Of a stretch of DNA of 64,000 bases, positions 2,039 through 27,552 are shown piece after piece. Made by a program: the position numbers and the translations under genes. Position 1 is the stretch's first letter. The number at the start of each line of letters is the position of its first letter. Source of the stretch: Tuwongella immobilis. GTDB lineage: Bacteria; Planctomycetota; Planctomycetia; Gemmatales; Gemmataceae. The stretch is taken from assembly GCF_901538355.1 (NCBI RefSeq), contig NZ_LR593887.1:2580920-2644919 (forward strand), given 5' to 3'. A model generated the notes under the pieces. That model saw only the letters and a list, made by a program, of their open reading frames with translations. It had not been told where the DNA came from and ran no database searches.

Positions 2039-3418
2039 ATGGCCACAGCTCCCAATTCGGACGGCTTAAATCGACGCCGGTTTATTCAACAATCTGCCTC
2101 AGCTGGTGTCACATTATCCGTTACCGCGTCGGGGTATCGCACGGTTCTGGGAGCAAATGAACGACTGGGAGTGGCGATTCTGGGAGCCGGAGCGCGTGCG
2201 CAAGCCCATATTGACACAATCCTTGCGCTCAAACGCGATGGAATACCCATCGATGTTGTCGGGGTTTGTGATGTCTGGGATGGTTGGGAAGGGGAATACT
2301 GGAATGAGTTTCCCGTGGGGCATCGCACGAAGCGGCGATATGCCCAAGGGCTGAATCCCACCGCCGTGAAATGTGGCCTGAATCCGACCGATCGCCAACG
2401 CGTCACCAAAGATTATCGGCGATTATTGGATCGTTCCGATGTGCATGCGGTCTGTATCGCGACGCCGGATCATTGGCATGCGAAAATGATTGTGGATGCA
2501 GCGCGGGCCGGCAAACACATCTTCTGCGAATCTCCGTTGACACGAACCGCACGTGAGGCCGCTCAGGTCAAAGACGTGTTACAGCAAACGCAACGTGTTC
2601 TCACGGTTGGAGTTCCGTCGCTAACCGATTCCGGAATCATGCTCGCTCGGGAATGCCTTCGTCGGGGGCGAATCGGGCCGGCGGTCCACGCACAAGCGGG
2701 AGTGCATCGCAACGATATTCGGGGAATGTGGCGATTCTATCGCGTGTTGCCGACCATGACCCCGCAGACCATCGACTGGCCGAAGTTCCTCGGCGTTGAT
2801 CCGCATTGCGGCATCGATTCTCCCGAATTGGCACCCGATTTTCCATTTAACGCCACATTATTCGCGCAATGGCGAACCTCACGTCACTTTGGCAATGGAC
2901 CGCTATCCGATTTATTGATTCATCCGCTCAGCCGATTGTTAAGTGTGTTACCCTATCGATCGCTTCGCCGCGTGACCGCCGCCGGTGGGTTATTCTTAGA
3001 GACAGACGGCCGTGATGTGCCGGATGTGGCCACCCTGTTGGCAGATTTCTCCGAGGGGGGACAGGTTGCGTTGACCGCGACGACCGTTAATTCGTATCCG
3101 CAAGAAGAAGTCATTCGTGGGCGGTTTGGCACCATGCGATTCGAGCGTGGCAGTGTCTCGATCATTAACGAAGATCCATCACGAAGTTCGCTGCTGCCCA
3201 ACCGGCTGGAAGGATTGATTCCCGCCACGGAAACGCTGCGATACGATCCGGAACGACTGGAAAATCGTGCCCTTTGGCTCGACTGGCTCAAAGCAGTCCA
3301 CGACGGGCGAACCTCCACGATCAGCCCTGCGGAAATCGGCTGTCTTTCATCGACGATTGTACATATGGGGATGGTGACGATGTTAGGCACACTCGGTGAG
3401 AGCCCCGATTCTCGTTGA
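2039..3418 (+). CDS. Gfo/Idh/MocA paralogue with altered EKP motif
   Basis: This encodes 459 residues from the ATG at 2039, which has GAGG six bases upstream; an in-frame GTG at 2027 is less likely. A twin-arginine-like start (NRRRFIQQSASAG) precedes a Rossmann fold (VAILGAGARAQAH). It keeps TPDHWHAKM, but the EKP motif reads ESP: Ser165 replaces the conserved lysine. The second His of the catalytic region present in the upstream paralogue (QTTHL) is replaced (PLSRL), while the Asp and first His remain (SDLLIH). It is a paralogue of the preceding gene with more AT-rich codons. By family knowledge, loss of the EKP lysine would be expected to impair normal dehydrogenase chemistry; this is inference. 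Confidence 0.85.
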   Translation: MATAPNSDGLNRRRFIQQSASAGVTLSVTASGYRTVLGANERLGVAILGAGARAQAHIDTILALKRDGIPIDVVGVCDVWDGWEGEYWNEFPVGHRTKRRYAQGLNPTAVKCGLNPTDRQRVTKDYRRLLDRSDVHAVCIATPDHWHAKMIVDAARAGKHIFCESPLTRTAREAAQVKDVLQQTQRVLTVGVPSLTDSGIMLARECLRRGRIGPAVHAQAGVHRNDIRGMWRFYRVLPTMTPQTIDWPKFLGVDPHCGIDSPELAPDFPFNATLFAQWRTSRHFGNGPLSDLLIHPLSRLLSVLPYRSLRRVTAAGGLFLETDGRDVPDVATLLADFSEGGQVALTATTVNSYPQEEVIRGRFGTMRFERGSVSIINEDPSRSSLLPNRLEGLIPATETLRYDPERLENRALWLDWLKAVHDGRTSTISPAEIGCLSSTIVHMGMVTMLGTLGESPDSR

Positions 3419-3524
3419 AATCGCAGACTCGCGATCATGACAATTCACAATAACGGCGTGTGAACATCTCGACAGTTCTGGAGAAAAATTGAGAGAAATG
3501 AAGTCATCAATCATCAATTCGCAC

Positions 3525-3552
3525 TTGCGACGGGTTAAAGGGATTCTACAAT
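3525..3552 (+). promoter_or_regulatory. Sigma-70-like promoter for the AT-hook gene
   Basis: A -35-like TTGCGA (3525-3530) and a -10-like TACAAT (3547-3552) are separated by 16 bases. They lie about 37 bases before the ATG at 3589, in a relatively AT-rich gap. Confidence 0.5.
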
Positions 3553-3588
3553 AGGTTGAAGGTCCGTTGTCAACCTGAGGAATTATCT

Positions 3589-4062
3589 ATGCCACGTTCG
3601 CGTGATGGCGTCAGTGTGAGTCGGATTTTCCGCGATTACTTCCGCGAAAATCCTGAGTTTCTCACACAAGCCAGCAATGTTGAAATTTATGATCGGTTCA
3701 AACAGGAACACCCAGAAATTGAGCTGACCAAAGCTGTTCAAGGTGTCTGTGCGAATATCAAAAGCATCGAGCGGAAAAAGCTCAAAGATAACGGCGGTGT
3801 CCTGCCCGATGCGCCGCCTCGCCCCCGTGGCCGACCGGCGAAAACCACCGCGGCTCCCACCACTTCGACTGCCGTAACTCCTGCTGCACCCAAGGTTTCT
3901 GTCGCCGCCTCCGCATCTCCCAAAGATGCGTTGACCGCGCTGGAAGAACAAATTGACGATGTGCTGAACATTGCCCGAAATCTGGATAAGACGGGGTTAG
4001 AAGATGTGATTCGGCATCTGCGACGTGCTCGCAATCTCGTCTCTCTCAAACTCGATTCGTGA
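3589..4062 (+). CDS. Small AT-hook-containing protein of unknown function
   Basis: This encodes 157 residues. The ATG at 3589 is chosen because CTGAGG ends eight bases upstream. Residues 1-68 are charged and predicted helical (SRIFRDYFRENPEF, VEIYDRFKQEHPE) and could form a small helix-turn-helix-like domain. Residues 78-85 read RPRGRPAK, matching the AT-hook core PRGRP (79-83) that binds the minor groove of AT-rich DNA. A Pro/Ala/Thr-rich linker (86-110) leads to a C-terminal amphipathic helix region (112-155) suited to oligomerisation. No signal peptide is seen, so it should act in the cytoplasm. A nucleoid-associated or regulatory DNA-binding role is inferred from the AT-hook alone. Confidence 0.7.
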   Translation: MPRSRDGVSVSRIFRDYFRENPEFLTQASNVEIYDRFKQEHPEIELTKAVQGVCANIKSIERKKLKDNGGVLPDAPPRPRGRPAKTTAAPTTSTAVTPAAPKVSVAASASPKDALTALEEQIDDVLNIARNLDKTGLEDVIRHLRRARNLVSLKLDS

Positions 4063-4086
4063 TGTTGGTTCCGAATCGAGTTTGAG
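4045..4086. terminator. 15-bp inverted repeat between convergent genes
   Basis: CTCAAACTCGATTCG at 4045-4059 is perfectly complementary to 4072-4086, with a 12-base loop. The left arm is the last five sense codons of the upstream gene, and the stop codon sits at the loop edge. There is no long T-run. The position between convergent genes suggests a bidirectional terminator. Confidence 0.6.
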
Positions 4087-4102
4087 CCGTTCCAATGAAT
4101 CG

Positions 4103-5365
4103 TCAGGGACGACGGACCCCTTCGATTCGCATCAATGTAAATGGTGCGATGGTGATGATGTTCACAACGCCATCGCTCCCCTCACAAATCCCCAACGGTT
4201 GCCACGGCGTCAGGATCCCATCCGGTTCCTTGCGCATGGTGTGATGCCATGGCTTTGCACTTCCATCTGCATTCACAAATGTCGTGAAATCTGGATTTTT
4301 CACTCCCACAGGTCCGTGATGGATCGGTGCGGAATCTCCTGGTCGATAGCTCACCAAATGCAATTGCGGCCCGCGCGGAAGTCCCTGTTCCGTGACGGCC
4401 ATCCACACCGTTCCCGTTGGACCCACGCACATGCACCGGCAATCGATTCGTTTCGCCTGGCTGAGAATCGGACCGACTCGAGTGCCATTCAGCACCTTCC
4501 CGGACTGCGTCAGGTCGAATTTTACCAGTTCGTTGGTTACCATCTCTACGCTGTAAAGTGTTTTCCGATCTCGAGTTGTGTCCCAATTGAGAATGGCGTG
4601 GTCTTTAGTCCATGAATCCGGGAGCGGCTTGCCATCGAGCGTGACGGTGAGACGTTCGAGCTGATCGGTATTCGGGTCATATCGGGCGATCGTGCCGCCA
4701 CGTATGGGGTGATAGGCACGCCCTTGATGATCCAACACAATAAAGGCATACGCTTGTTCCATGTCGCCGAAATCACGAACCTGCTTGGTTTTGAGATTGA
4801 GCATCATGAAATGGGTGTGGTCAATTGGGCGATCATCGGAGCAGGTGGAAAGATAGACCACCCCCCGAGATTCATCGGGCATGACACTAATCACACCATG
4901 TTTTGGCTTGGGAATGCCATAATGGAGATTTTTCCCCGTTGCGGGATCATGGGTGAGAACATAGCCACCCAGATAGGCATCTTTACTTTCACCTTTTTCG
5001 GGATACCCCTGTTTGCTACCGACATAAATCACGCCGCTTTCGCCGACGTTGTTGCGTGTGTGAATTTTGGCCTGGGCCGCAAACCCCGTTGCGGTTGAGC
5101 CAATTGTCTGCATCACATCCATCACAACCCGAGTGCGATTGGATTTCGGATCATATTCCAACAAGAATCCGTTGACGCCGTATTTTGCGGAGCCAATGTA
5201 GAGTTTCTGATTCTTGCCCTCAATGATCGAAAAGTAGCCGCTTTCCTGATTGGTGGTCTCGCTGGGCAACTTCACGGCGGTGCCCAGAAGCCACTTCGGG
5301 GGATCGGCCAGAAGCGGTGCGGAAATCATGACGTAGCAAAGGGTTACGGCAAGCCATTTGTTCAT
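4103..5365 (-). CDS. Exported beta-propeller-like protein
   Basis: This encodes 420 residues with an N-terminal signal peptide (KWLAVTLCYVMISAPLLA, cleavage near residue 21). The mature part shows repeated propeller-like blades such as KLYIGSAKYGVNGFLLEYD, GVIYVGSKQGY and GVVYLSTCSDD, each carrying Gly/Asp turns. This fits a six- or seven-bladed propeller of the SMP-30/quinoprotein-like class, but no enzyme motif is clear. Its ATG overlaps the stop of the preceding gene by four bases (ATGA), so it is translationally coupled as the last gene of a three-gene minus-strand operon. The substrate or ligand is unknown. Confidence 0.7.
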   Translation of the reverse strand: MNKWLAVTLCYVMISAPLLADPPKWLLGTAVKLPSETTNQESGYFSIIEGKNQKLYIGSAKYGVNGFLLEYDPKSNRTRVVMDVMQTIGSTATGFAAQAKIHTRNNVGESGVIYVGSKQGYPEKGESKDAYLGGYVLTHDPATGKNLHYGIPKPKHGVISVMPDESRGVVYLSTCSDDRPIDHTHFMMLNLKTKQVRDFGDMEQAYAFIVLDHQGRAYHPIRGGTIARYDPNTDQLERLTVTLDGKPLPDSWTKDHAILNWDTTRDRKTLYSVEMVTNELVKFDLTQSGKVLNGTRVGPILSQAKRIDCRCMCVGPTGTVWMAVTEQGLPRGPQLHLVSYRPGDSAPIHHGPVGVKNPDFTTFVNADGSAKPWHHTMRKEPDGILTPWQPLGICEGSDGVVNIITIAPFTLMRIEGVRRP

Positions 5366-6564
5366 GGGATGAGCTTCTTTCGTTGAACGGCGGGCGGAAT
5401 TGGGTCGGTCGCAAATGGGTAGTTCGTCGGCTGATAGCGAATGGCGAGTTCGGGTGTTTCGATGCGGCGATTTTGTTGGTGTCGGCTGCGCATCAAGCCG
5501 TCGAGAATCCCGGATGTTAACAGCGTGCGTTCAAACGGATAGCCGGGTTGTCCGGTATGAATCAATTTTTCAATCGCCTGGAGAAGATAGCTAAAGTGGG
5601 CGAATGGATCATAATTTTGGAGCCAAAATTGACAGGCGAGCGGTTCCGGCTGATTGGCGAGTTGGCCGGCGAATAAGAACGCGCCACCATCGCCTTCATA
5701 GACCCACCCATTGGGCATCATGACGATTCCACGAAAACCGTCACGATATTCGATGACAAATAGCCCGGCATCCGTGGTTTTCGCGGTAATCTCCCGAATA
5801 TCGCCCGGGGCATGGCCAGTGACAAGTTTGCGTGTTCGCTCGAATAAAGCCCGTGTTGGGGCATCTTGATCGATCGGCTTCCACATGTCGGGGCCGCTGA
5901 GATACTGCACGGCCTGCACGCCGACTTCACCGCCGGATCGGCGTTCGACCATCGATTGAAACATTTCCAATGCGTGGAATCCGTATCCTTCCAAGGGACC
6001 GTAACCCATGCCGAATGCGTGCGTGAGTTTCGCGCCTTTCTCCAGATTGACAACGGGTTTACGCCAGGTGAGCGGGACCGAGGAGCCGGCCAAAAATGGC
6101 ACATGCAAGGCGCGGACCCGCTCGGCCATCCACTTGGCATCGGTCCAAGTCGGGCCGAGGTGTTTATCGTGAAACACGGGTACGGAGCGCTTGGCCTGCT
6201 CGAACACATCACAGACTTCAGCCAGCAGTCGGCGTCGGGGGTAGAGAATTTGGCCAACGTCGTTGGTGGGGTAGATGCCGTGTTCGCCGATAATCAGCAC
6301 GCCATCGACGGCGAGTTTTCCGGTGCCCAAAGTGAGGGCGTCGGCAATCGTGGGGCTCACCCGATAGCCAAATCGCTTGGCCATCGGGCGACTGAGATCA
6401 TTTGCCGGGATCTGATCCACGAACATGCTTGCCACTTCTAACGCCGGTTTCTCGCCACCATCATAGAGGAATCCCTCGAGAATTTTTCCCGCGAGAACAT
6501 CCACATGTGACCAATGGCGATACACGGTTGCAACAATGGCAACCCGTTTTGGCGTGGCAGGCAT
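5362..6564 (-). CDS. Conserved-looking protein of unknown function, 400 aa
   Basis: The start at 6564 (MPATPKRVAI) is chosen because AAAGGA (6571-6576) lies six bases upstream; ATG at 6570 and TTG at 6582 are in-frame alternatives. There is no signal peptide, so it is probably cytoplasmic. The N-terminus (RVAIVATVYRHWSHVDVLAGK) and the segment VDGVLIIGEHGIYPTNDVGQ look like alternating strands and helices of an alpha/beta fold. Histidines recur (HWSH, GEHG, FHDKHLG). I do not recognise the family. It sits between the TIM-barrel isomerase gene (12 bases upstream) and the exported propeller gene (four-base overlap), so a role in the same small-molecule pathway is plausible but unproven. Confidence 0.7.
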   Translation of the reverse strand: MPATPKRVAIVATVYRHWSHVDVLAGKILEGFLYDGGEKPALEVASMFVDQIPANDLSRPMAKRFGYRVSPTIADALTLGTGKLAVDGVLIIGEHGIYPTNDVGQILYPRRRLLAEVCDVFEQAKRSVPVFHDKHLGPTWTDAKWMAERVRALHVPFLAGSSVPLTWRKPVVNLEKGAKLTHAFGMGYGPLEGYGFHALEMFQSMVERRSGGEVGVQAVQYLSGPDMWKPIDQDAPTRALFERTRKLVTGHAPGDIREITAKTTDAGLFVIEYRDGFRGIVMMPNGWVYEGDGGAFLFAGQLANQPEPLACQFWLQNYDPFAHFSYLLQAIEKLIHTGQPGYPFERTLLTSGILDGLMRSRHQQNRRIETPELAIRYQPTNYPFATDPIPPAVQRKKLIP

Positions 6565-19319: not shown

Positions 19320-20390
19320 TTAGTCGATTGAGGGGCTGACTTCCGACGGAGTCAAGCCACCGCCTTGTGCGGTGATCAGCGCCGCATAGGTTTGCGGCGA
19401 GATGCTATCGCGGATGAATCGCACCGAACCATCGGTGAAGACATGGTTTGCGCCGCCGGTGTGGAAGGCGTAGGTTTCGTTATCGTTATCGCAATTGATG
19501 ACGCAATTGCCCGGCCCGGTGCTGGTCGGCGGATTGGTGGCACGGTTGACGGTGACCCCGTCCAACCCGTAATCGGATTCGTGGTCGCCCCAGCCGCCAT
19601 CGGTTTGGCTGCTGGCATTGACGCGCACGCCACCAATCCAGCGTTCCGGTCGGCCCGCATCTTCAAACAGCAGAATCGTGTTGGAGGTACCGTCGGTGAT
19701 GCCGGTGATGGCGATTGGCGAGGAAGCGCCGATTCCGACCAGGCCCAGCCCCGCCCCCTTGGCGTCGAATCGCATCGCCCCGGCCAAGGTCACCGAGGTG
19801 GTTCCTGCCGGGTAGCCAAAGAAGTTGATCGAGCCAGTGTTGATGGAAGTACAGGTGGCGTAATCACTTGGGGCCGTCGTGTACGGGAAGGTCGCCACGA
19901 ACGATTTGGTGCCGCTCATCAACGTGGTTGCAGGACGTGGAGTCGATGGGCAGATGAACGTCTTCACCGGCGTGCGAACGACTGCGGCGTTATCCGGCGT
20001 GCCCGGCACAATCGTGGGCGAGGAGAGCCAGGGGAAGTTCAGGTTGTAGTTGCGGAACAGGTTTTCCTGCTCGATGAACGGCAACAGATTCACGGCCCAG
20101 GAATGCAGAATCAGCGGGTAGGGGAATCCGGGTTGGCCCGCGCTTCCCGGTGCGGCTCCCACATTGATGACCAGACTGGGCGGAAGCGTCCCGTTGGACG
20201 ATTCGAAATTGGCGGCGGCCAGCCCCAACTGTTTCAGGTTGTTTTGGCAGGTCATTCGAGCGGCGGCTTCGCGGACCTTTTGGACCGCCGGCAGCAACAA
20301 CCCGATGAGGATGGCAATGATGGCGATGACCACCAAGAGTTCAATCAGCGTGAACCCAAGCCGAGATCGACGGCAGCGGATGCGAGACAT
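19320..20390 (-). CDS. DUF1559 prepilin-like protein, copy 1
   Basis: This encodes 356 residues from the ATG at 20390. The N-terminus is a type IV prepilin-like signal: basic residues, then [19 protein letters not shown] with the Phe/Glu pattern cleaved by prepilin peptidase. [20 protein letters not shown] follows, the hallmark of DUF1559. The C-terminus has the H-x9-DG element ([16 protein letters not shown]). These proteins are expanded to dozens of copies in planctomycetes; pseudopilin or surface structural roles are suspected but unproven. The gene precedes a lipoprotein gene by 20 bases. Confidence 0.93.
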
Positions 20391-20488
20391 GCCTACATAC
20401 CTCGAAGAATCGACGAAAAAGAGCGTCTGAAATGAGGATAGTCGACTTCGAGAACCGAAGGGACCATTCCAGCTCGAAGAAGTCCAAT

Positions 20489-20550
20489 CTTCATGAGATG
20501 TTCGGGTGGTCGTCATGGTTTCTTCATGAATGGGCGAGAATCATGAAGAA
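20489..20550. repeat. Repeated CTTCATGA sites with an inverted pair
   Basis: TTCTTCATGA (20520-20529) and TCATGAAGAA (20541-20550) form a 10-bp inverted repeat spaced by 11 bases. A further CTTCATGA lies at 20489-20496, 33 bases before the matching octamer in the first arm. The group lies about 100-160 bases upstream of the DUF1559 start at 20390, where an operator would be expected. The binding protein is unknown. Confidence 0.4.
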
Positions 20551-20627: not shown

Positions 20628-23600
20628 TTACTTGCCGGCGACATCCTTCGCCGATTCGGCAGCCGCCGGGGAGATTCGCACCGACAGCGGATCAACCCAA
20701 TGCTTGCTATCGGCGTCGTAGTACAGATAGGCACGGCTGGCCGGCCCACGATACTCACCGGGCAGATCGGCGATCAGATCGACGGGGATCTCAATGACCT
20801 GATCGGCCTTCATGGTTCGCCAGTAGAGAATCAACTCCCGTCCGCGAATCTCGAAGTAACTCAATCGCGGAGCCGTTCCATCCTTGGGAATTTCCGTCAA
20901 TCGTTTGAGTTGCTTCATATCTTCGGGCACCTTCAACCCAGCGGGCAGGCCGACGATGGCCGTCACCATCCCGGTCGATTTGGGCTGCGTGTTTTGCACC
21001 AGCACATCCAACCGCACAGTTTCGCCTTCGGTCAGGTCGGTCTTGGGCAGCAGCGTCGTGAGCTTGATTGGGAGTTTCTCCGCCGATGCGGGCTTGAGCG
21101 ACCGAGCCGACCAACTCAGAGAAAACGGCATGCCGGATTTCGTGGTCAGGTTGAGCGTCAGCAGATTCTTGCCCGGCTTGAGCAGCTTTTCCGAATCGGT
21201 GATGAGCAGCGAAATCGTGTCGCGATCATCCTTGGTGAAATCGCGGCTGGCCACGACTTTGCCATCCAGTTCGATGCTCAGCGTCCCGGCTTCGGCGGGG
21301 CGTCGGGTGGCATCGGCATAGCGAACCAGCGCCTTGAGCGCGAGAACCGTCGATTGCGTGGCCCCGAAGGTGCCGCCGCCGTCGCGTTGCTTGCCGATCC
21401 ACTTCGCCGCCTTCACCACCGATTGATGGTAGTTCTTGTCATCGTTCGCCTTCAGCCAAGCCAGAATCGCGAGCGATGTCGTTTCGATTTGCAGATAGCG
21501 ACCGCTGGATTGCGTGATGCTGGTTTCGGCCTTGTCGAGATAGCCATCCGCATGTTGGTTGGCCGTCAGTTGACCGAGGATCACCGCCGCTTCCGCGTTC
21601 ATGCCCCGATTCAGGAGCACATTCGCCAGCACCGCCAGGAAGTACGAATCGTTCGAGGTCTTGGCCGTGGCTTGCAGTTGGGCAATCTCGGCATCCAACG
21701 GCAATTTCCCGGAATCAGCCAGCACCCGTTCCGATTCGGTGAGTGCCCAGACGATGTAGGCATTGGTGATCTGCTGCGGGGCACCCCCGAAGGCATCCAG
21801 CGCCCGCGGATTCCGCTTGAAGCCACCGTTGCCGTCGCGTTGATCCAGCAGATATTGCTGCGTTCGCTTGAGCATGGCGTCATCCACCGGCATCACCCGC
21901 TTCATATCCAGAAACTGCATCAACCCGAAGGCGGTGAGTGCTTCGTGCGGCGGGGCTTGACCACCGAACCACTCGTACCCACGGCGACCGTCTCCGCTGG
22001 GCAGTTGGCATTCGAACGAGGTCAAGCGTCCGTAGCCGCGATCCAGCAAGTCCCGAGCGCGGCGGCTGGTTTCCGGCGAGGCGGTATCGGTCGATCGCAG
22101 GTAATCGAGAATCATCAGGTTGGGGTAGTTGCTGTTCGAGGTTTGTTCGAAGCAGCCGTTCGGCTCTTGCAGCAATCCTTCCAAGCCCTTTTGCAGCTCG
22201 GCCAACGGTGCGGGAAAGACGCTGGCTTCCACGAACAGGCTACCAGGCACCCACGTCGGCGGCAGATCCAGCTCCACTTGCAGCGATTTTTCCAACTGAT
22301 CGCTCACGCTACCGCTGATCGGGAACCCTTCCGGCATGACGCGGAGTTTGCGTTCGATGGTATCCGCCGGTGCGGGTGGATCGATCGATTCGCCTTGGAG
22401 CCGTAACAGTGCCGTACCCTTGCCGTTGGCGACATCGGGCGTGAAGCGATAGAGTTGCCGTGTGCGTTGATTCGCATTCAACCGGAGCGGATCCACCCAC
22501 ACTTGCTGATCTTGCTTCAGCGTTTTCGACGCCGTGGCTTGCGGATCAATCTTCAGCCCCTGCGGGAAGAAGGTCATCTTCAACTGACGGGGATCGTCCG
22601 AATCGTTGATGATCCGCACCGGCACATCGATGCGATCATTCGCGGACACTTCCACGGGCAATTTCGGATCGACAGAGAACGGCTTGCGGGCTTCGATCTC
22701 CATGACTTGGGCACCAATTCGGCCATCGAGCGAATGCCCTGCCACCAACACCCGATACTGGCCAATATCCGACGCGAGTTGGAACGAAACCTTCGCGTGT
22801 CCTTGCGAATCCAGCACCAACGCCGGTTGCCAGAAGACGGTTTCCGTGAAATCGTTCCGCAGATTGTCCATGACTTCGGGGGCGATGTGGGCATATTCGC
22901 GGACGAAGAATGGGCGATATTGCGGCTCCTGTTGCAATCGAGCGAGGTTTTCTTCGAGATCGTTCAAGGCTTCGCGTTTCGCCAGGGGGCCGCGACCGCC
23001 CATTCCCATCCCCATCCCCATGCCCGCGAGATCTCCGTGCGGCTTATCGGCTTGTTCCATTGCGAATCGACCGCCGGGGGGAAATCCCGGTGGTGGCGGC
23101 ATGGGGGCACCGGGGATGCCACCGCGTGCGAAGGCGTTGGCTCGGGGATTCAATCCGCGTCCGTTTCGCAACGCCAGGGCATCGACTGGCCCATCGCGTT
23201 GGTCCATCTCTTTGGCATCGGCCATCTGCTTGCGTTGGAATCCGAGTTCTCCGACTCGCCCCCGGGCTTCCAGGCGTCGTGGCCCTTTCGCGGCGGGATC
23301 GGCTTGCGCCTTCTCGCCATTCTTGGCCTCTTCTTGCAATCGCGGAGCCGCCGGCATCGCGGCCGCTCGTGGGGGCTGGAAGGCAAATCGATCCATCATC
23401 GGCATCGGAGCCATCGCTTCGGGAGCCATCGGCATTCCGGCACCACCCATCGCGGGCATTCCGCCCAGGGCACCGAGTCCGCCAACCCCACCTGGGCCGT
23501 TGAACGGGGCCATGCCATCTTCGCCACCCGCGGCCATTCCCATGGCCATTTCGGGCATTGCTTCGCGAGCCATCTTCGGCGCTGGTGCATCGATTGCCCC

Positions 23601-26600
23601 GGTTGCTTTGCTGAACGATGTTTCGGCTTGCGAACCGATCATCGCCCAGGATAGCACTCCGACGATACCGACTACCGCAACGCAGCCAATTGCATAGCCC
23701 AATCGGAATCCGCCGGTCGATTCGCTGGGCAGGAATCGTCGAAGCAGGTAGAACAATCCGCCGATCACCAGACCGATTCCGACCACACGCGTCAAGATAC
23801 CCGCCGTTGATTCCAACTCGCTCCAAGCGGCGAATTGCTCTTGGCGTTCCTGTTCCGCTTCCAACTGTTGACTGGCGACTTGGTTGTGGAGCGTTTGCAA
23901 CTGCACTTGCAGATCGTCTTGCAGCAATCGCGCTTGCTGCTCTTCGTTGGCTTGGAGTTTGGCGGTTGCGACATCCAGCTTCGGACGATAATTCGCTTCC
24001 AATGCGGCGATTTCACGACGCGAAACGAGCATCGCCGATTGCGGCTGAATGCCGGAGCTGCTCAAGAAGCGATTGGCCACCGCACCCTGTTGTTGTTGGA
24101 ATCGCTGCGGATTCACTTCCGCAAACCGACGCCATCCTTGGGTGCCGAGGAGCAGATCGAGTGTCATCGCGGCCAAGGGATGCTCGCCGACAATGAAATT
24201 CGCATGCTCCAATTGGTCGGCATTCTGCACTTCGCTGGCCAGGAACAGATGCGCGGGCAAGAAGCGTTCCGTTTTGTCATCGGCCATGCTCAGCACACTG
24301 CGCTGCACGACTGCGACCATCAACACCGCCGGAGTCGGTGCGCCGGTCTCATTCGTGGCGGAAATGCTCAATTCGGCTTTGCTTCCCGGATTGTATCGGG
24401 GCTGATTCGGCTGCACATTCAGGTTGATGACCTGCGTGGGGTGTCGGTAGACCAATCGCTCGGCAATCGGGGTCAATTCCGGCAATTCCCCGGTTTTCTC
24501 GTCGCCCAGTTTGGTGACTTCAAAGACCGTGATTCGCACCACACCGCTTGCAGTGGAATCGGGGCGGAAGGTGACGGTTGCTGGCGTACCGGGCTTGACG
24601 GTGAGCGGTTCTTGCTCGATCAGCCGACCGCGAGCATACGCACCGATGATCAAATTGCGAACCTTGTCCGGCGAATGGACCGTGGCTTCGATTGGCTCGT
24701 TGCCACGCGAGACGCCGTTGGGGACAGTGAGCACAACCCCTTTGGCATTGGCGGCAGGCAGATCAAAATTCCCCTCGATTCCAATGGGGCGATTGATCTT
24801 GAGGCTGTATCGCGTTCCCAGTTTGGGGGTGATTTCAAAGACGCCCAGCCCTTGGTTGACTCCCGGATGATCGGCATCGGTGAGTGTGCGGGCGACGGCG
24901 ACCGTTTCCATGCCGTCCACGATGGTGCCATCCAGATCGGCGGGCTTGCCACGCGAGGTGCGGACTTGGAAGTAGACGCGGTTCTTCACGCCGGCAATCA
25001 GTTCGCCACCTTCGGGATAGAATGCGATGTCGAGTTTCTTGCTGACAATCGGGATTGGCCGCGAAATCGTTTCGACGCTGGCGGCATCTCGGAAGGTCAC
25101 AGAAACCGTGCCATCTTCGGTATTCAGCGGTTTCGGCAGGCTGAATTTCAATCGCACCGAGCCATCGGCATCGGTGGTCGCGGGGGTCTTGATGCCGATT
25201 TCTTCACCGCCGACGTTGACCTGCACCGACACGGGAACCTTCGCCAACGGCTCGCCGGTGTTGCGAAGGCCATCGACTTTCACCTGCACGGGATCGCCCG
25301 CGCCGTAGGTTTTGGCATCGAATTCGAGTTTCTTCAGCAATTGGTCTTGGACATATTGATTGACCAGGATTTTGCGGGTGTCTAGGATCGTGACCGGATC
25401 GCCGGGATACTTGGCCACGCGGGTCACTGTCAGCGTGTATTCGCCGCCCGGTGCATCGTCGGGAATGGCGAATTCACTGGATGCGATTCCACGCAGCGGC
25501 TCGCCATCGGGACCCAAGACGGGGGAGTCAATTCCCGCGATATTCCGGTTGATGCGCGTGACGCCGGCTTCCGTGTAGACTTCCGCGCCGCTGGGGGCGG
25601 TGATGCGGAACTGGACGGCCAATTCTTCCGGCGGCGGCAAAAACGACGATCGTTCCAATGTTAAGGAGCGGAAATAGACCGTTTCGCCGGGCTTGTACAT
25701 CGGCTTGTCGGTCACCAGATGGGTGGCATACACGGGGGCGGCGAGATTGAGCTTCTCGCACAGTGGCGATTTCCCGCCGGCCTCATCGATCGACATCACA
25801 TCCAGGAACAGATCACTTCCTGGGGCGACATCGTTCCACATCGAAATCGGCAACGACAATTTCAACGGCTCTTGCGTGGTCGTTGGCGGTTGGCGATAGA
25901 CGACTTGGTCCTTGGCGTCGCGGATGGTGACTTCCACCTTGGCGGGGGTGTCCAGAAGCTGACGATTCAAGGTGCGAATGCGGTATTCGTTGGGGGCACC
26001 CGGTTGAATGCGCTCTGGCCCGGCGACGCTGACGGTCAACGGCTGGCGACGGAGTGAATCACCGAGTTTGACCGTGGCAGCTTGCCAGCGTTGTTGAAGG
26101 TCATTGAAGGCTTTTTGTGCGGCAAGAAATTCGGCTTCGGCGGCCGCTTGCTTGTCACGAAGCGATTGTTCCAACTCGACTTGTTTGGCGAGGGCGACTT
26201 GCAAGCGATTTTGCGACTCGCGTGCGAGTTGGGATTGTTCGTGATACTCGTTGTATCGCACACCCAGCGGCAATCCGACGGCAATGGCCAAACACGCGGC
26301 CACGGCCAACGCCAGAAACCGCGACGATCGCCGAGCGGGCTGCTTGGCCGATGCGGGAGTGGTCGTTGGAATCGTGGTGGAGTGGGAGGTTCGTGTGGTT
26401 TCCGGGTCGGATGCCGGGGCGGTGAATTGGACGTTGGGGAATTCGCTTTTGGCGGCTTTGGCGATGAGATTGGCCATCGCCTGGGTCTTGGCCCAAATGG
26501 GCTGGCAAACGGGACAATCACGGAGATGCTCGTGGAACGCGCGTTCCGCATCTGCGTCCAGCAGGCCATAGATTTGGTCAAGCATCTGCGCTTGACAGTC

Positions 26601-26615
26601 TTCACAACGGATCAT
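20628..26615 (-). CDS. Anti-sigma-like zinc finger fused to a membrane alpha-2-macroglobulin
   Basis: This encodes 1995 residues. Residues 1-40 form a zinc-finger anti-sigma-like motif: C4-x2-C7, then H30-x3-C34-x2-C37. A Pro/Thr linker leads to a transmembrane helix (about 100-118) and a coiled coil (about 125-188). Residues 190-940 contain macroglobulin beta-sandwich domains, including TDKPMYKPGETVYFRS, the MG2 signature. Two more hydrophobic segments lie near 948-992, then a Met/Gly/Pro-rich linker (about 1000-1170). The A2M domain follows (NDFTETVFWQPALVLDSQG), with thioester motif GCFEQ (Cys1488, Gln1491) and an alpha-helical toroid. By family knowledge, bacterial A2Ms trap external proteases through the thioester. 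The predicted topology puts the zinc finger in the cytoplasm and all macroglobulin parts outside. The ECF sigma gene lies 119 bases upstream on the same strand. Confidence 0.88.
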   Translation of the reverse strand: MIRCEDCQAQMLDQIYGLLDADAERAFHEHLRDCPVCQPIWAKTQAMANLIAKAAKSEFPNVQFTAPASDPETTRTSHSTTIPTTTPASAKQPARRSSRFLALAVAACLAIAVGLPLGVRYNEYHEQSQLARESQNRLQVALAKQVELEQSLRDKQAAAEAEFLAAQKAFNDLQQRWQAATVKLGDSLRRQPLTVSVAGPERIQPGAPNEYRIRTLNRQLLDTPAKVEVTIRDAKDQVVYRQPPTTTQEPLKLSLPISMWNDVAPGSDLFLDVMSIDEAGGKSPLCEKLNLAAPVYATHLVTDKPMYKPGETVYFRSLTLERSSFLPPPEELAVQFRITAPSGAEVYTEAGVTRINRNIAGIDSPVLGPDGEPLRGIASSEFAIPDDAPGGEYTLTVTRVAKYPGDPVTILDTRKILVNQYVQDQLLKKLEFDAKTYGAGDPVQVKVDGLRNTGEPLAKVPVSVQVNVGGEEIGIKTPATTDADGSVRLKFSLPKPLNTEDGTVSVTFRDAASVETISRPIPIVSKKLDIAFYPEGGELIAGVKNRVYFQVRTSRGKPADLDGTIVDGMETVAVARTLTDADHPGVNQGLGVFEITPKLGTRYSLKINRPIGIEGNFDLPAANAKGVVLTVPNGVSRGNEPIEATVHSPDKVRNLIIGAYARGRLIEQEPLTVKPGTPATVTFRPDSTASGVVRITVFEVTKLGDEKTGELPELTPIAERLVYRHPTQVINLNVQPNQPRYNPGSKAELSISATNETGAPTPAVLMVAVVQRSVLSMADDKTERFLPAHLFLASEVQNADQLEHANFIVGEHPLAAMTLDLLLGTQGWRRFAEVNPQRFQQQQGAVANRFLSSSGIQPQSAMLVSRREIAALEANYRPKLDVATAKLQANEEQQARLLQDDLQVQLQTLHNQVASQQLEAEQERQEQFAAWSELESTAGILTRVVGIGLVIGGLFYLLRRFLPSESTGGFRLGYAIGCVAVVGIVGVLSWAMIGSQAETSFSKATGAIDAPAPKMAREAMPEMAMGMAAGGEDGMAPFNGPGGVGGLGALGGMPAMGGAGMPMAPEAMAPMPMMDRFAFQPPRAAAMPAAPRLQEEAKNGEKAQADPAAKGPRRLEARGRVGELGFQRKQMADAKEMDQRDGPVDALALRNGRGLNPRANAFARGGIPGAPMPPPPGFPPGGRFAMEQADKPHGDLAGMGMGMGMGGRGPLAKREALNDLEENLARLQQEPQYRPFFVREYAHIAPEVMDNLRNDFTETVFWQPALVLDSQGHAKVSFQLASDIGQYRVLVAGHSLDGRIGAQVMEIEARKPFSVDPKLPVEVSANDRIDVPVRIINDSDDPRQLKMTFFPQGLKIDPQATASKTLKQDQQVWVDPLRLNANQRTRQLYRFTPDVANGKGTALLRLQGESIDPPAPADTIERKLRVMPEGFPISGSVSDQLEKSLQVELDLPPTWVPGSLFVEASVFPAPLAELQKGLEGLLQEPNGCFEQTSNSNYPNLMILDYLRSTDTASPETSRRARDLLDRGYGRLTSFECQLPSGDGRRGYEWFGGQAPPHEALTAFGLMQFLDMKRVMPVDDAMLKRTQQYLLDQRDGNGGFKRNPRALDAFGGAPQQITNAYIVWALTESERVLADSGKLPLDAEIAQLQATAKTSNDSYFLAVLANVLLNRGMNAEAAVILGQLTANQHADGYLDKAETSITQSSGRYLQIETTSLAILAWLKANDDKNYHQSVVKAAKWIGKQRDGGGTFGATQSTVLALKALVRYADATRRPAEAGTLSIELDGKVVASRDFTKDDRDTISLLITDSEKLLKPGKNLLTLNLTTKSGMPFSLSWSARSLKPASAEKLPIKLTTLLPKTDLTEGETVRLDVLVQNTQPKSTGMVTAIVGLPAGLKVPEDMKQLKRLTEIPKDGTAPRLSYFEIRGRELILYWRTMKADQVIEIPVDLIADLPGEYRGPASRAYLYYDADSKHWVDPLSVRISPAAAESAKDVAGK

Positions 26616-26734
26616 GAAGCCGACTCCTCAACCAGGCAGCCAATCGATCGGTTGGATCGGGAGCCACGTGGGATGTTGAAACCAATGATTTGGTGAATGC
26701 GAGAATAATTGCGAGTCGCGGGTGCAATCCGGAG

Positions 26735-27289
26735 TTAGTTCAAAACACTGCGGAGTTTTTGAAGCGCGGAACGCATTTGAGTTTTGACGGTGCCCACGGG
26801 GCTTTGACGGATCTCCGCGATTTGTTCGTAGGTGAGTCCGCCGTTTTGGCGCAATAAGAAGACTTCTTGTTCTTCCTGGCGTAACTGCCCGATTGCCTCG
26901 CGCAGTCGGGATAAGGATTCTTGATCCTCCAGGAGTTGTCCCGGGGCTAGATCGCGTCCGACGAGCATGGATTCTTCTCCCGAGAAGGGTTTCGCTCGAC
27001 GATTCCAGGCGCTTCGTTGATGATCGCGTGCCGCGTTCAGCCCCACGCGAAAGATCCACGCACGCAGATTCAACACCTGCGAAAGTGCCTCCCGATTGCG
27101 CCAGCACTTCAGGAACGTATCCTGGGCGACATCTTGAGCATCCTCCCGGTTGCCCAAGATAAAGACGAGCGTACTTACCAGCTCGTCGCGCAGTTCGGCG
27201 AACGTCGATATCAGCACCTGTTCCATGGCGATGGAACCATCTCCCATCGATGGGGGTTGGCCGTCCGGTTTGACGTCGAGCGTATTCAT
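26735..27289 (-). CDS. ECF-family RNA polymerase sigma factor
   Basis: This encodes 184 residues. Region 2 is present (ELVSTLVFILGNREDAQDVAQDTF..., then WRNREALSQVLNLRAWIFRV). Region 4 helix-turn-helix is present (QEVFLLRQNGGLTYEQIAEI and GTVKTQMRSALQKLR). There is no signal or extra C-terminal domain. It lies directly upstream of the zinc-finger/macroglobulin gene in the usual sigma/anti-sigma order, so that fused protein is its probable anti-sigma factor. The 263-base gap to the divergent lipoprotein gene should hold the promoters of both; I could not pick out a convincing ECF promoter pair. Confidence 0.93.
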   Translation of the reverse strand: MNTLDVKPDGQPPSMGDGSIAMEQVLISTFAELRDELVSTLVFILGNREDAQDVAQDTFLKCWRNREALSQVLNLRAWIFRVGLNAARDHQRSAWNRRAKPFSGEESMLVGRDLAPGQLLEDQESLSRLREAIGQLRQEEQEVFLLRQNGGLTYEQIAEIRQSPVGTVKTQMRSALQKLRSVLN

Positions 27290-27552
27290 GGTTTCCTACC
27301 TATCCGACGACTCGCCATTGCCAAGCGATTGGGAGAGACGCGATTTTTTTCCGCTTCGTAGAACTGCGTCGGCAATTGGGTGCCCGTCCTTCGCCATGCT
27401 ATGCCTCGCGACAACCAACTGCAAGCGGTCAGCGAGCGGATCGTTGATTTGTTCGGATGTCGAATTGCTTTCCTGAAAAACTTGGCTTGCACGGAAATCC
27501 CCCTCCGAGTATCTCCCCTGATTGCATCGGTCGCGTACCCGGAGAGTGGCTC

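Follow-up and report, generated by a model that had tools for sequence, protein, structure and literature searches.

The locus described here raises the question of what a protein might do that begins as an anti-sigma factor and ends as an alpha-2-macroglobulin (A2M). The window (the whole stretch of DNA analyzed, 64,000 nucleotides of contig NZ_LR593887.1 from Tuwongella immobilis) contains a gene for an extracytoplasmic function (ECF) sigma factor and, 119 bp downstream of it and likewise on the minus strand, an open reading frame (ORF) encoding a single chain of 1995 amino acids (aa). On balance we favor the reading, held with moderate confidence, that this chain is a membrane receptor built from a complement-like macroglobulin and working as a class I anti-sigma factor with a bait and stalk relay. 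The features on which the argument draws are listed below; TM denotes a transmembrane helix, MG a macroglobulin domain and pLDDT the predicted local distance difference test score.

26735..27289, minus strand: gene for the 184-aa ECF sigma factor that presumably partners the anti-sigma domain
20628..26615, minus strand: anti-sigma/macroglobulin fusion gene, ORF with ATG start, 1995 aa
26445..26615, minus strand: anti-sigma domain, residues 1-57, with AlphaFold2 helices at 4-9, 11-15, 21-33 and 37-56
26595..26606, minus strand: CxxC, residues 4-7
26505..26528, minus strand: HxxxCxxC zinc motif, residues 30-37
26259..26315, minus strand: TM1, residues 101-119, from a hydropathy scan
26046..26258, minus strand: long helix continuing beyond TM1, proposed as the first stalk arm, residues 120-190, predicted by AlphaFold2
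24123..26036, minus strand: macroglobulin domains, equivalent to MG1-MG6, residues 194-831, beta domains predicted by AlphaFold2
23799..24038, minus strand: proposed second stalk arm, residues 860-939, predicted by AlphaFold2
23742..23798, minus strand: TM2, residues 940-958, from the hydropathy scan
23637..23693, minus strand: TM3, residues 975-993, from the hydropathy scan
22989..23603, minus strand: disordered Gly/Ala/Pro/Met-rich, bait-like linker, residues 1005-1209, no predicted structure, pLDDT 26-39
22575..22841, minus strand: A2M domain (MG7), residues 1259-1347, Pfam A2M 51.6 bits
21318..22196, minus strand: thioester domain, residues 1474-1766, TED_complement 111.6 bits, predicted helical domain
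22143..22157, minus strand: thioester motif GCFEQ, residues 1487-1491, with Cys1488 and Gln1491
21795..21797, minus strand: Asp1607, at the C3/C4B catalytic His and C4A Asp position, from a profile alignment to human A2M
20715..21038, minus strand: C-terminal macroglobulin domain (bMG10-like), residues 1860-1967, bMG10 16.3 bits against a cutoff of 26.2

The ORFs agree with the initial annotation, which had placed a 1995-residue protein after an ECF gene, had noted CxxC and HxxxCxxC motifs in its first 40 residues and had described an apparently intact thioester, GCFEQ, between Cys1488 and Gln1491. It had also described a membrane helix followed by macroglobulin domains; both were found, and TM2, TM3 and the disordered segment had been overlooked. 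The ECF ORF exceeds the Pfam cutoffs for Sigma70_r2 and Sigma70_r4_2 and scores 74.3 bits against TIGR02937 (cutoff, 42.9). Pfam analysis of the fusion protein revealed zf-HC2, MG2 (residues 298-350), A2M and TED_complement in one chain; matches to MG4, A2M_BRD and bMG10 were below their own Pfam cutoffs. From the N terminus onward, the chain comprises a class I anti-sigma domain, TM1, a C3/A2M-like body, TM2 and TM3, a disordered linker and a thioester domain. When the 6.69-Mb genome was scanned with the TED_complement profile, the fusion gene was the single match. From Pfam alone the anti-sigma call is borderline, since zf-HC2 (residues 4-38), with a cutoff of 22.2 bits, reached 17.8 bits when the whole protein was scanned and 24.4 bits when the genome was.

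A profile was also built from 52 family N-termini and searched against 177,635 distinct PDB sequences. The top four matches were 3hug_B (2.2e-6), RsrA (5frf; 8e-4), DdvA (8rlz; 0.004) and RsiW (5wuq; 0.0096), and the fifth was a CHAT-domain protein (E value, 0.077). 3hug_B is listed in PDB as a probable conserved membrane protein; we take 3hug to be the anti-sigma factor RslA. 3hug_B was matched as well, over residues 10-76 (E value, 0.0022), by a profile covering the entire N-terminal half. These matches to anti-sigma structures rule out a secreted A2M with a chance N-terminus. The AlphaFold2 model of the domain is confident (block pLDDT of 92-96 for residues 1-50 and 77 for residues 51-60). 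The protein has the helical anti-sigma N-terminus and the adjoining ECF gene of class I anti-sigma factors, as well as the HxxxCxxC of the zinc anti-sigma (ZAS) domains. This motif is not family-wide, because the zinc ligands are absent in several relatives, in which a YGLL core and the helical core are retained. According to an excerpt of PMC7406223, about half of membrane-bound anti-sigma domains have no zinc motif. We infer that the domain holds the sigma factor encoded just upstream.

The fusion is not confined to this genome. Near end-to-end matches (from residue 1-8 to residue 1983-1990, 39-44% identity) were found in eight other genomes from eight other genera, three of the eight holding one internal stop codon. 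The conservation of the architecture in other genera rules out a sequencing or ORF-calling error. Loci from the cultured relatives Limnoglobus roseus and Zavarzinella formosa (L094 and L102) are also known. Counting the window's own genome, 53 of 59 genomes match some part of the protein, a figure that takes in ordinary A2M genes and is not a fusion count; the 233 of 294 genomes found in the phylum search likewise mix MG-only and N-terminus-only matches and were not used as one. In a first set of 52 loci (numbered here with the prefix L), 48 had an ECF hit upstream, that of L050 being weak, and of the four without a hit, three end at a contig end and L046 is apparently frameshifted. The second set came from a scan of genome contigs and consisted of the best 80 loci of 294 relatives, mostly planctomycete. 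Among these 80, 62 carried the first anti-sigma type and had 700 bp or more of sequence ahead of the match; in 61 of the 62, the family ECF gene lay upstream on the same strand. The two sets overlap and include some near-copies, so that their counts are neither additive nor independent; Fisher tests of the pairing ignore kinship and were not relied on. L122 was dropped from the tree, and the paired test omitted both L122 and loci with less than 700 bp of upstream sequence; rows L100, L128, L134 and L146 were omitted from the count of N-terminal types. The initial annotation had staked its proposal on the sigma-A2M order recurring in relatives, and the order is conserved. Together with the anti-sigma structures matched, this upholds its description of a sigma/anti-sigma pair with a thioester macroglobulin as the outer part.

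When neighboring genes were clustered, the ECF cluster was by far the largest (44 loci), and 36 of its 58 ORFs lay at position -1 and on the same strand. A second cluster, of 15 loci with an opposite-strand ORF at -1, probably reflects the antisense strand of the ECF gene. Same-strand downstream clusters reached only six and five loci; in the window, the gene downstream of the fusion on the same strand (positions 19320-20516) is a DUF1559 pilin-like gene. Three loci labeled as Bacteroidales (L096), Nealsonbacteria (L153) and Kuenenia (L141) group with planctomycete sequences on the tree and are probably mis-binned or mislabeled.

The N-terminus and the sigma type change together. Four loci (L095, L103, L104 and L105) have another N-terminal domain and, in all four, another ECF type; all four of these ECF proteins passed Pfam sigma-70 region 2, and the two that were scanned with NCBIfam were over the TIGR02989 cutoff. 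N-termini like this second type also occur on FecR proteins, one of them with a laminin-G-like domain. Among six loci that lack the first two N-termini and have enough upstream sequence, L108 and L115 included, the family ECF gene was found in none. A third N-terminal domain, of unknown kind and with a divergent upstream sigma gene, was seen in L108 (positions 3-1210) and L115 (positions 4308-5360); these sigma proteins exceed the Pfam cutoff for region 4 (L108 barely) and fall below that for region 2.

We turn to how the outer part may be joined to this presumed cytosolic switch. The TM2-TM3 loop of the window protein begins with RR. Of 62 proteins with both helices called and a loop of fewer than 40 residues, 60 have a net positive charge in this loop. 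By the positive-inside rule, positively charged loops are cytosolic; the loop and the N-terminus therefore fit a cytosolic location, and hydropathy and loop charge together fit a predicted topology of cytosolic N-terminus, membrane helix and outer domain. AlphaFold2 predicts a continuous helix over residues 115-190 (block pLDDT of 88-97 for residues 131-190) and a single helix over residues 860-961 that continues into TM2. We measured one arm as the distance from TM1 to MG2, which includes MG1, and the other as the distance from a GWRRF motif to TM2, leaving out rows without a clear TM pair. The two lengths covary across 57 loci (Spearman, 0.86; Pearson, 0.92), and phylogenetic contrasts retain the correlation (r of 0.64; none of 20,000 permutations as high). 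This is consistent with the notion that the helix after TM1 and the helix before TM2 form a paired stalk.

The best Foldseek match of the body is a C3b chain (6rur_A; E value, 7e-28; TM-score, 0.44/0.55). Profile and structure comparisons show that the C-terminal half resembles C3, A2ML1, CD109 and TEP1, and its profile is nearer to human A2M (2.6e-53) than to Escherichia coli YfhM (2e-7). With MG domains and a thioester domain bearing CxEQ, the protein has the hallmarks of a thioester alpha-macroglobulin. The linker of about 205 residues lies between TM3 and MG7, which is a bait-like position; disordered linkers have a median length of 168 aa in 57 members with a thioester domain and of 178 aa in 17 shorter members without GCFEQ, some of which merely end at a contig end. 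All complete long relatives but one (L127) keep GCFEQ (51 of 52), and 14 complete tails are short and lack both GCFEQ and the thioester domain. The catalytic column was placed by the profile alignment to human A2M together with the C3 and C4 motifs. In 52 rows chosen as holding GCFEQ, this column contains only Asp (41) or His (11), with five changes on the tree. In human C4, C4A favors amino groups and C4B favors hydroxyls, as an excerpt of PMC4753731 states. The retained GCFEQ, the Asp/His switching and the C4A/C4B precedent suggest that the thioester is probably live chemistry with changing targets.

Macroglobulins of this family are not the only protease inhibitors found in this arrangement. 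Fifteen places encoding a distant A2M had been taken as a control for ECF adjacency, and eight of them have an ECF gene immediately upstream and an anti-sigma-like N-terminus, recognized by profile in L265, L266, L269, L271 and L278 and by eye in L267, L268 and L274. Four of the 15 have neither a same-strand ECF gene nor an anti-sigma-like N-terminus (one of these true controls, L276, has a weak opposite-strand ECF hit of 4e-4), and three end prematurely. At the threshold used, three TM helices were called in seven of the eight distant fusions and only one in L265; of three scanned for zf-HC2, L266 passes (23.2 bits) and L267 and L274 gave no match. This second family (L265-L269, L271, L274 and L278) also carries GCFEQ. 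In three genomes, a serpin gene immediately follows an ECF gene (L214, positions 2645-5622; L246, 1964-5073; L245, 2026-4534). The second-type N-terminal profile matches the serpins of L214 (4e-6) and L246 (1e-6); the anti-sigma resemblance of L245 and the membrane segment in all three were recognized by eye. Their serpin domains are nearly full length (358-382 bits), and that of L214 carries the stretch EEGTEAAAATG, which we take for an inhibitory-type serpin hinge. Of 148 genomes in the class, 71 encode serpins. L214 surfaced in the N-terminus search, and L245 and L246 are from a group of 50 serpin loci, some of them overlapping each other. Since 20 of these 50 were retrieved, mainly for their long frames, the three fusions are not a rate. 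Since serpins are unrelated suicide protease inhibitors that are similarly fused, they lend indirect support to the protease-related stimulus proposed in the initial annotation.

The sigma factor may in turn act on its own locus. Upstream of the ECF start lies one further, weak feature, common to some relatives:

27306..27332, minus strand: possible autoregulatory promoter, CCAATC-N17-CGTC

The motif was fitted on 56 of 59 upstream regions after near-copies were dropped (L143, L154, L159 and L166 were left out of the set). Its mean score of 12.2 is modestly above the 10.5-11.4 of six refitted shuffles, and it has 133 matches genome-wide, compared with 11 for the reversed pattern.

How might such a chain release sigma? 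The initial annotation had suggested that cleavage or thioester reaction outside could free sigma directly, and this is not supported in that form. Because the linker follows TM3, everything from the anti-sigma domain through TM1, the body and TM2 to TM3 would stay joined after a cut in it, which makes direct release by bait cleavage unlikely as first proposed. In addition, an ECF gene is kept upstream in 12 of the 14 complete members without a thioester domain (the other two, L128 and L146, start inside the gene at a contig end), so that neither the thioester nor covalent capture is needed for sigma pairing. With the linker beyond three membrane anchors, sigma release would call for a relay along the stalk, for regulated proteolysis or for spent receptors being turned over; M50-type proteases are encoded in the genome. 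We propose that the cytosolic N-terminal domain would hold the sigma factor encoded just upstream, while the TM1 helix would pair with the helix running into TM2 and the resulting stalk would hold up the macroglobulin ring on the outer side of the cytoplasmic membrane, where the exposed linker may act as bait. A protease cut in it, or another change of ring shape, would rearrange the ring as in known A2Ms and C3, and in most members the thioester would bond covalently to the attacker. The change might then travel down the stalk to TM1, or the spent receptor might become a target of regulated proteolysis; with the anti-sigma domain released or degraded, sigma would be freed, perhaps making fresh traps. 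Known A2Ms do change shape after bait cleavage (excerpt of PMC4498604).

Several observations weigh against this reading. The persistence of the ECF gene without a thioester domain is one of them, and the assignment of the linker as a putative bait from disorder and position, rather than from cleavage, is another. The stalk correlation by contrasts drops to r of 0.52 without the two largest contrasts and is weaker by rank (0.31; p of 0.02), and the first length takes in MG1. The AlphaFold2 model of the C-terminal half is moderately confident (mean pLDDT, 72.7). L122, on the same contig as L046, has the anti-sigma domain and no ECF gene upstream, and L108 and L115, counted as lacking both N-termini, do have a divergent sigma gene there. 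Independent tests of the paired change are few, because the tree shows about one loss of the first N-terminal type: one contrast concerns the first type and two the second, all of them consistent. No regulon emerged from the 133 genome matches of the motif, a minority of which were checked for genes.

The protein might instead be an anti-sigma receptor for a non-protease cue, such as envelope or cell wall stress or a thioester-reactive surface, with the linker only a flexible tether. In favor of this are the ECF gene kept in thioester-free members, the five Asp/His changes, which in human C4 separate amino from hydroxyl targets (PMC4753731, in the excerpt cited above), and the FecR proteins whose N-termini resemble the second type, a laminin-G-like domain being present in one of them. 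We nevertheless consider this rather unlikely, in view of a linker that is long both with and without the thioester, of serpins fused in a similar way and of the thioester-free A2M MagD, which still traps protease through its bait according to an excerpt of PMC5764988.

It is a good deal less probable that the macroglobulin is mainly an effector trap whose supply is metered by the anti-sigma domain, degradation of spent traps freeing sigma to make new ones. The intact thioester motif would suit such a trap, and so would six copies without the anti-sigma domain (L097, L101, L109, L110, L111 and L112). For five of these, a copy with an N-terminal domain is found under the same contig prefix (L109/L139, L111/L140, L110/L142, L097/L108 and L112/L115), each pair probably coming from one metagenome-assembled genome; L101 has no second copy with a common prefix. 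The family ECF gene is not upstream of L109, L111 or L112, and in L097 and L110 the upstream sequence is too short to judge. Against it, the upstream motif that might place the fusion gene under sigma control is weak. We give hardly any credence to the N-terminal domain being a vestige or mere anchor that binds no sigma: several relatives have lost the zinc ligands, but the helical core and the ECF neighbor are retained, the N-terminus and sigma type change together, and zinc-free anti-sigma domains are commonplace in the excerpt of PMC7406223. The reading we prefer remains the complement-like receptor acting as a class I anti-sigma factor.

This putative receptor combines traits of systems that are known separately. 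With complement C3/C4, CD109 and TEP1 it shares the fold of body and thioester domain, and the family shows the Asp/His alternation of C4A/C4B; to our knowledge, these animal proteins have no cytosolic transcription switch. Like the class I anti-sigma factors (ASDI/ZAS: RslA, RsrA and RsiW), it has a helical N-terminal domain with HxxxCxxC, a membrane helix and a gene directly 3' of an ECF gene; it differs from them in two additional TM helices, a putative stalk and an ectodomain that consists of a thioester macroglobulin nearly 1,900 residues long. Bacterial type I A2Ms (E. coli YfhM/ECAM and Salmonella Sa-A2M) share the MG domains, bait-like disorder, CxEQ and membrane anchoring, as described in excerpts of PMC4498604 and PMC5764988. 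Unlike them, the fusion has an N-terminal anti-sigma domain, an ECF neighbor rather than PBP1c and a linker placed after TM3. PBP1c does not adjoin it in the window, where the flanking genes are the ECF sigma and DUF1559 pilin-like genes (the neighbors of relatives were clustered without PBP1c annotation), and no signal sequence or lipoprotein N-terminus is present, the 57-residue anti-sigma domain and a linker preceding TM1 (residues 101-119). Thioester-free members lack CxEQ, as does the type II A2M MagD; MagD belongs to the six-gene mag operon (excerpt of PMC5764988), whereas the partner in this family is an ECF gene. The initial annotation did not recall such a fusion, and we likewise found no description of an anti-sigma/macroglobulin fusion in the literature searched, which covered few subscription journals, so that an earlier listing, for instance in a supplement, is possible; a paper on BREX in which both words occur is unrelated, and the word macroglobulin is absent from the ECF reviews searched for it.

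If the reading is correct, bacteria use the complement/alpha-2-macroglobulin fold as a signaling receptor and not only as a passive trap, and protease attack would have a direct transcriptional output. This would explain the macroglobulins found beside sigma genes in Planctomycetota and would make the protein a modular sensor in which the N-terminal domain and its sigma factor are swapped as a pair; the Asp/His switch at the catalytic position of the thioester opens its target chemistry to testing. Tentatively, and with more doubt than for the receptor itself, we suggest that planctomycetes may have fused covalent, one-shot suicide traps (two macroglobulin families and serpins) to anti-sigma domains, each attack being met with capture and sigma release, as a bacterial counterpart of complement-based immune sensing whose sigma modules can be swapped.

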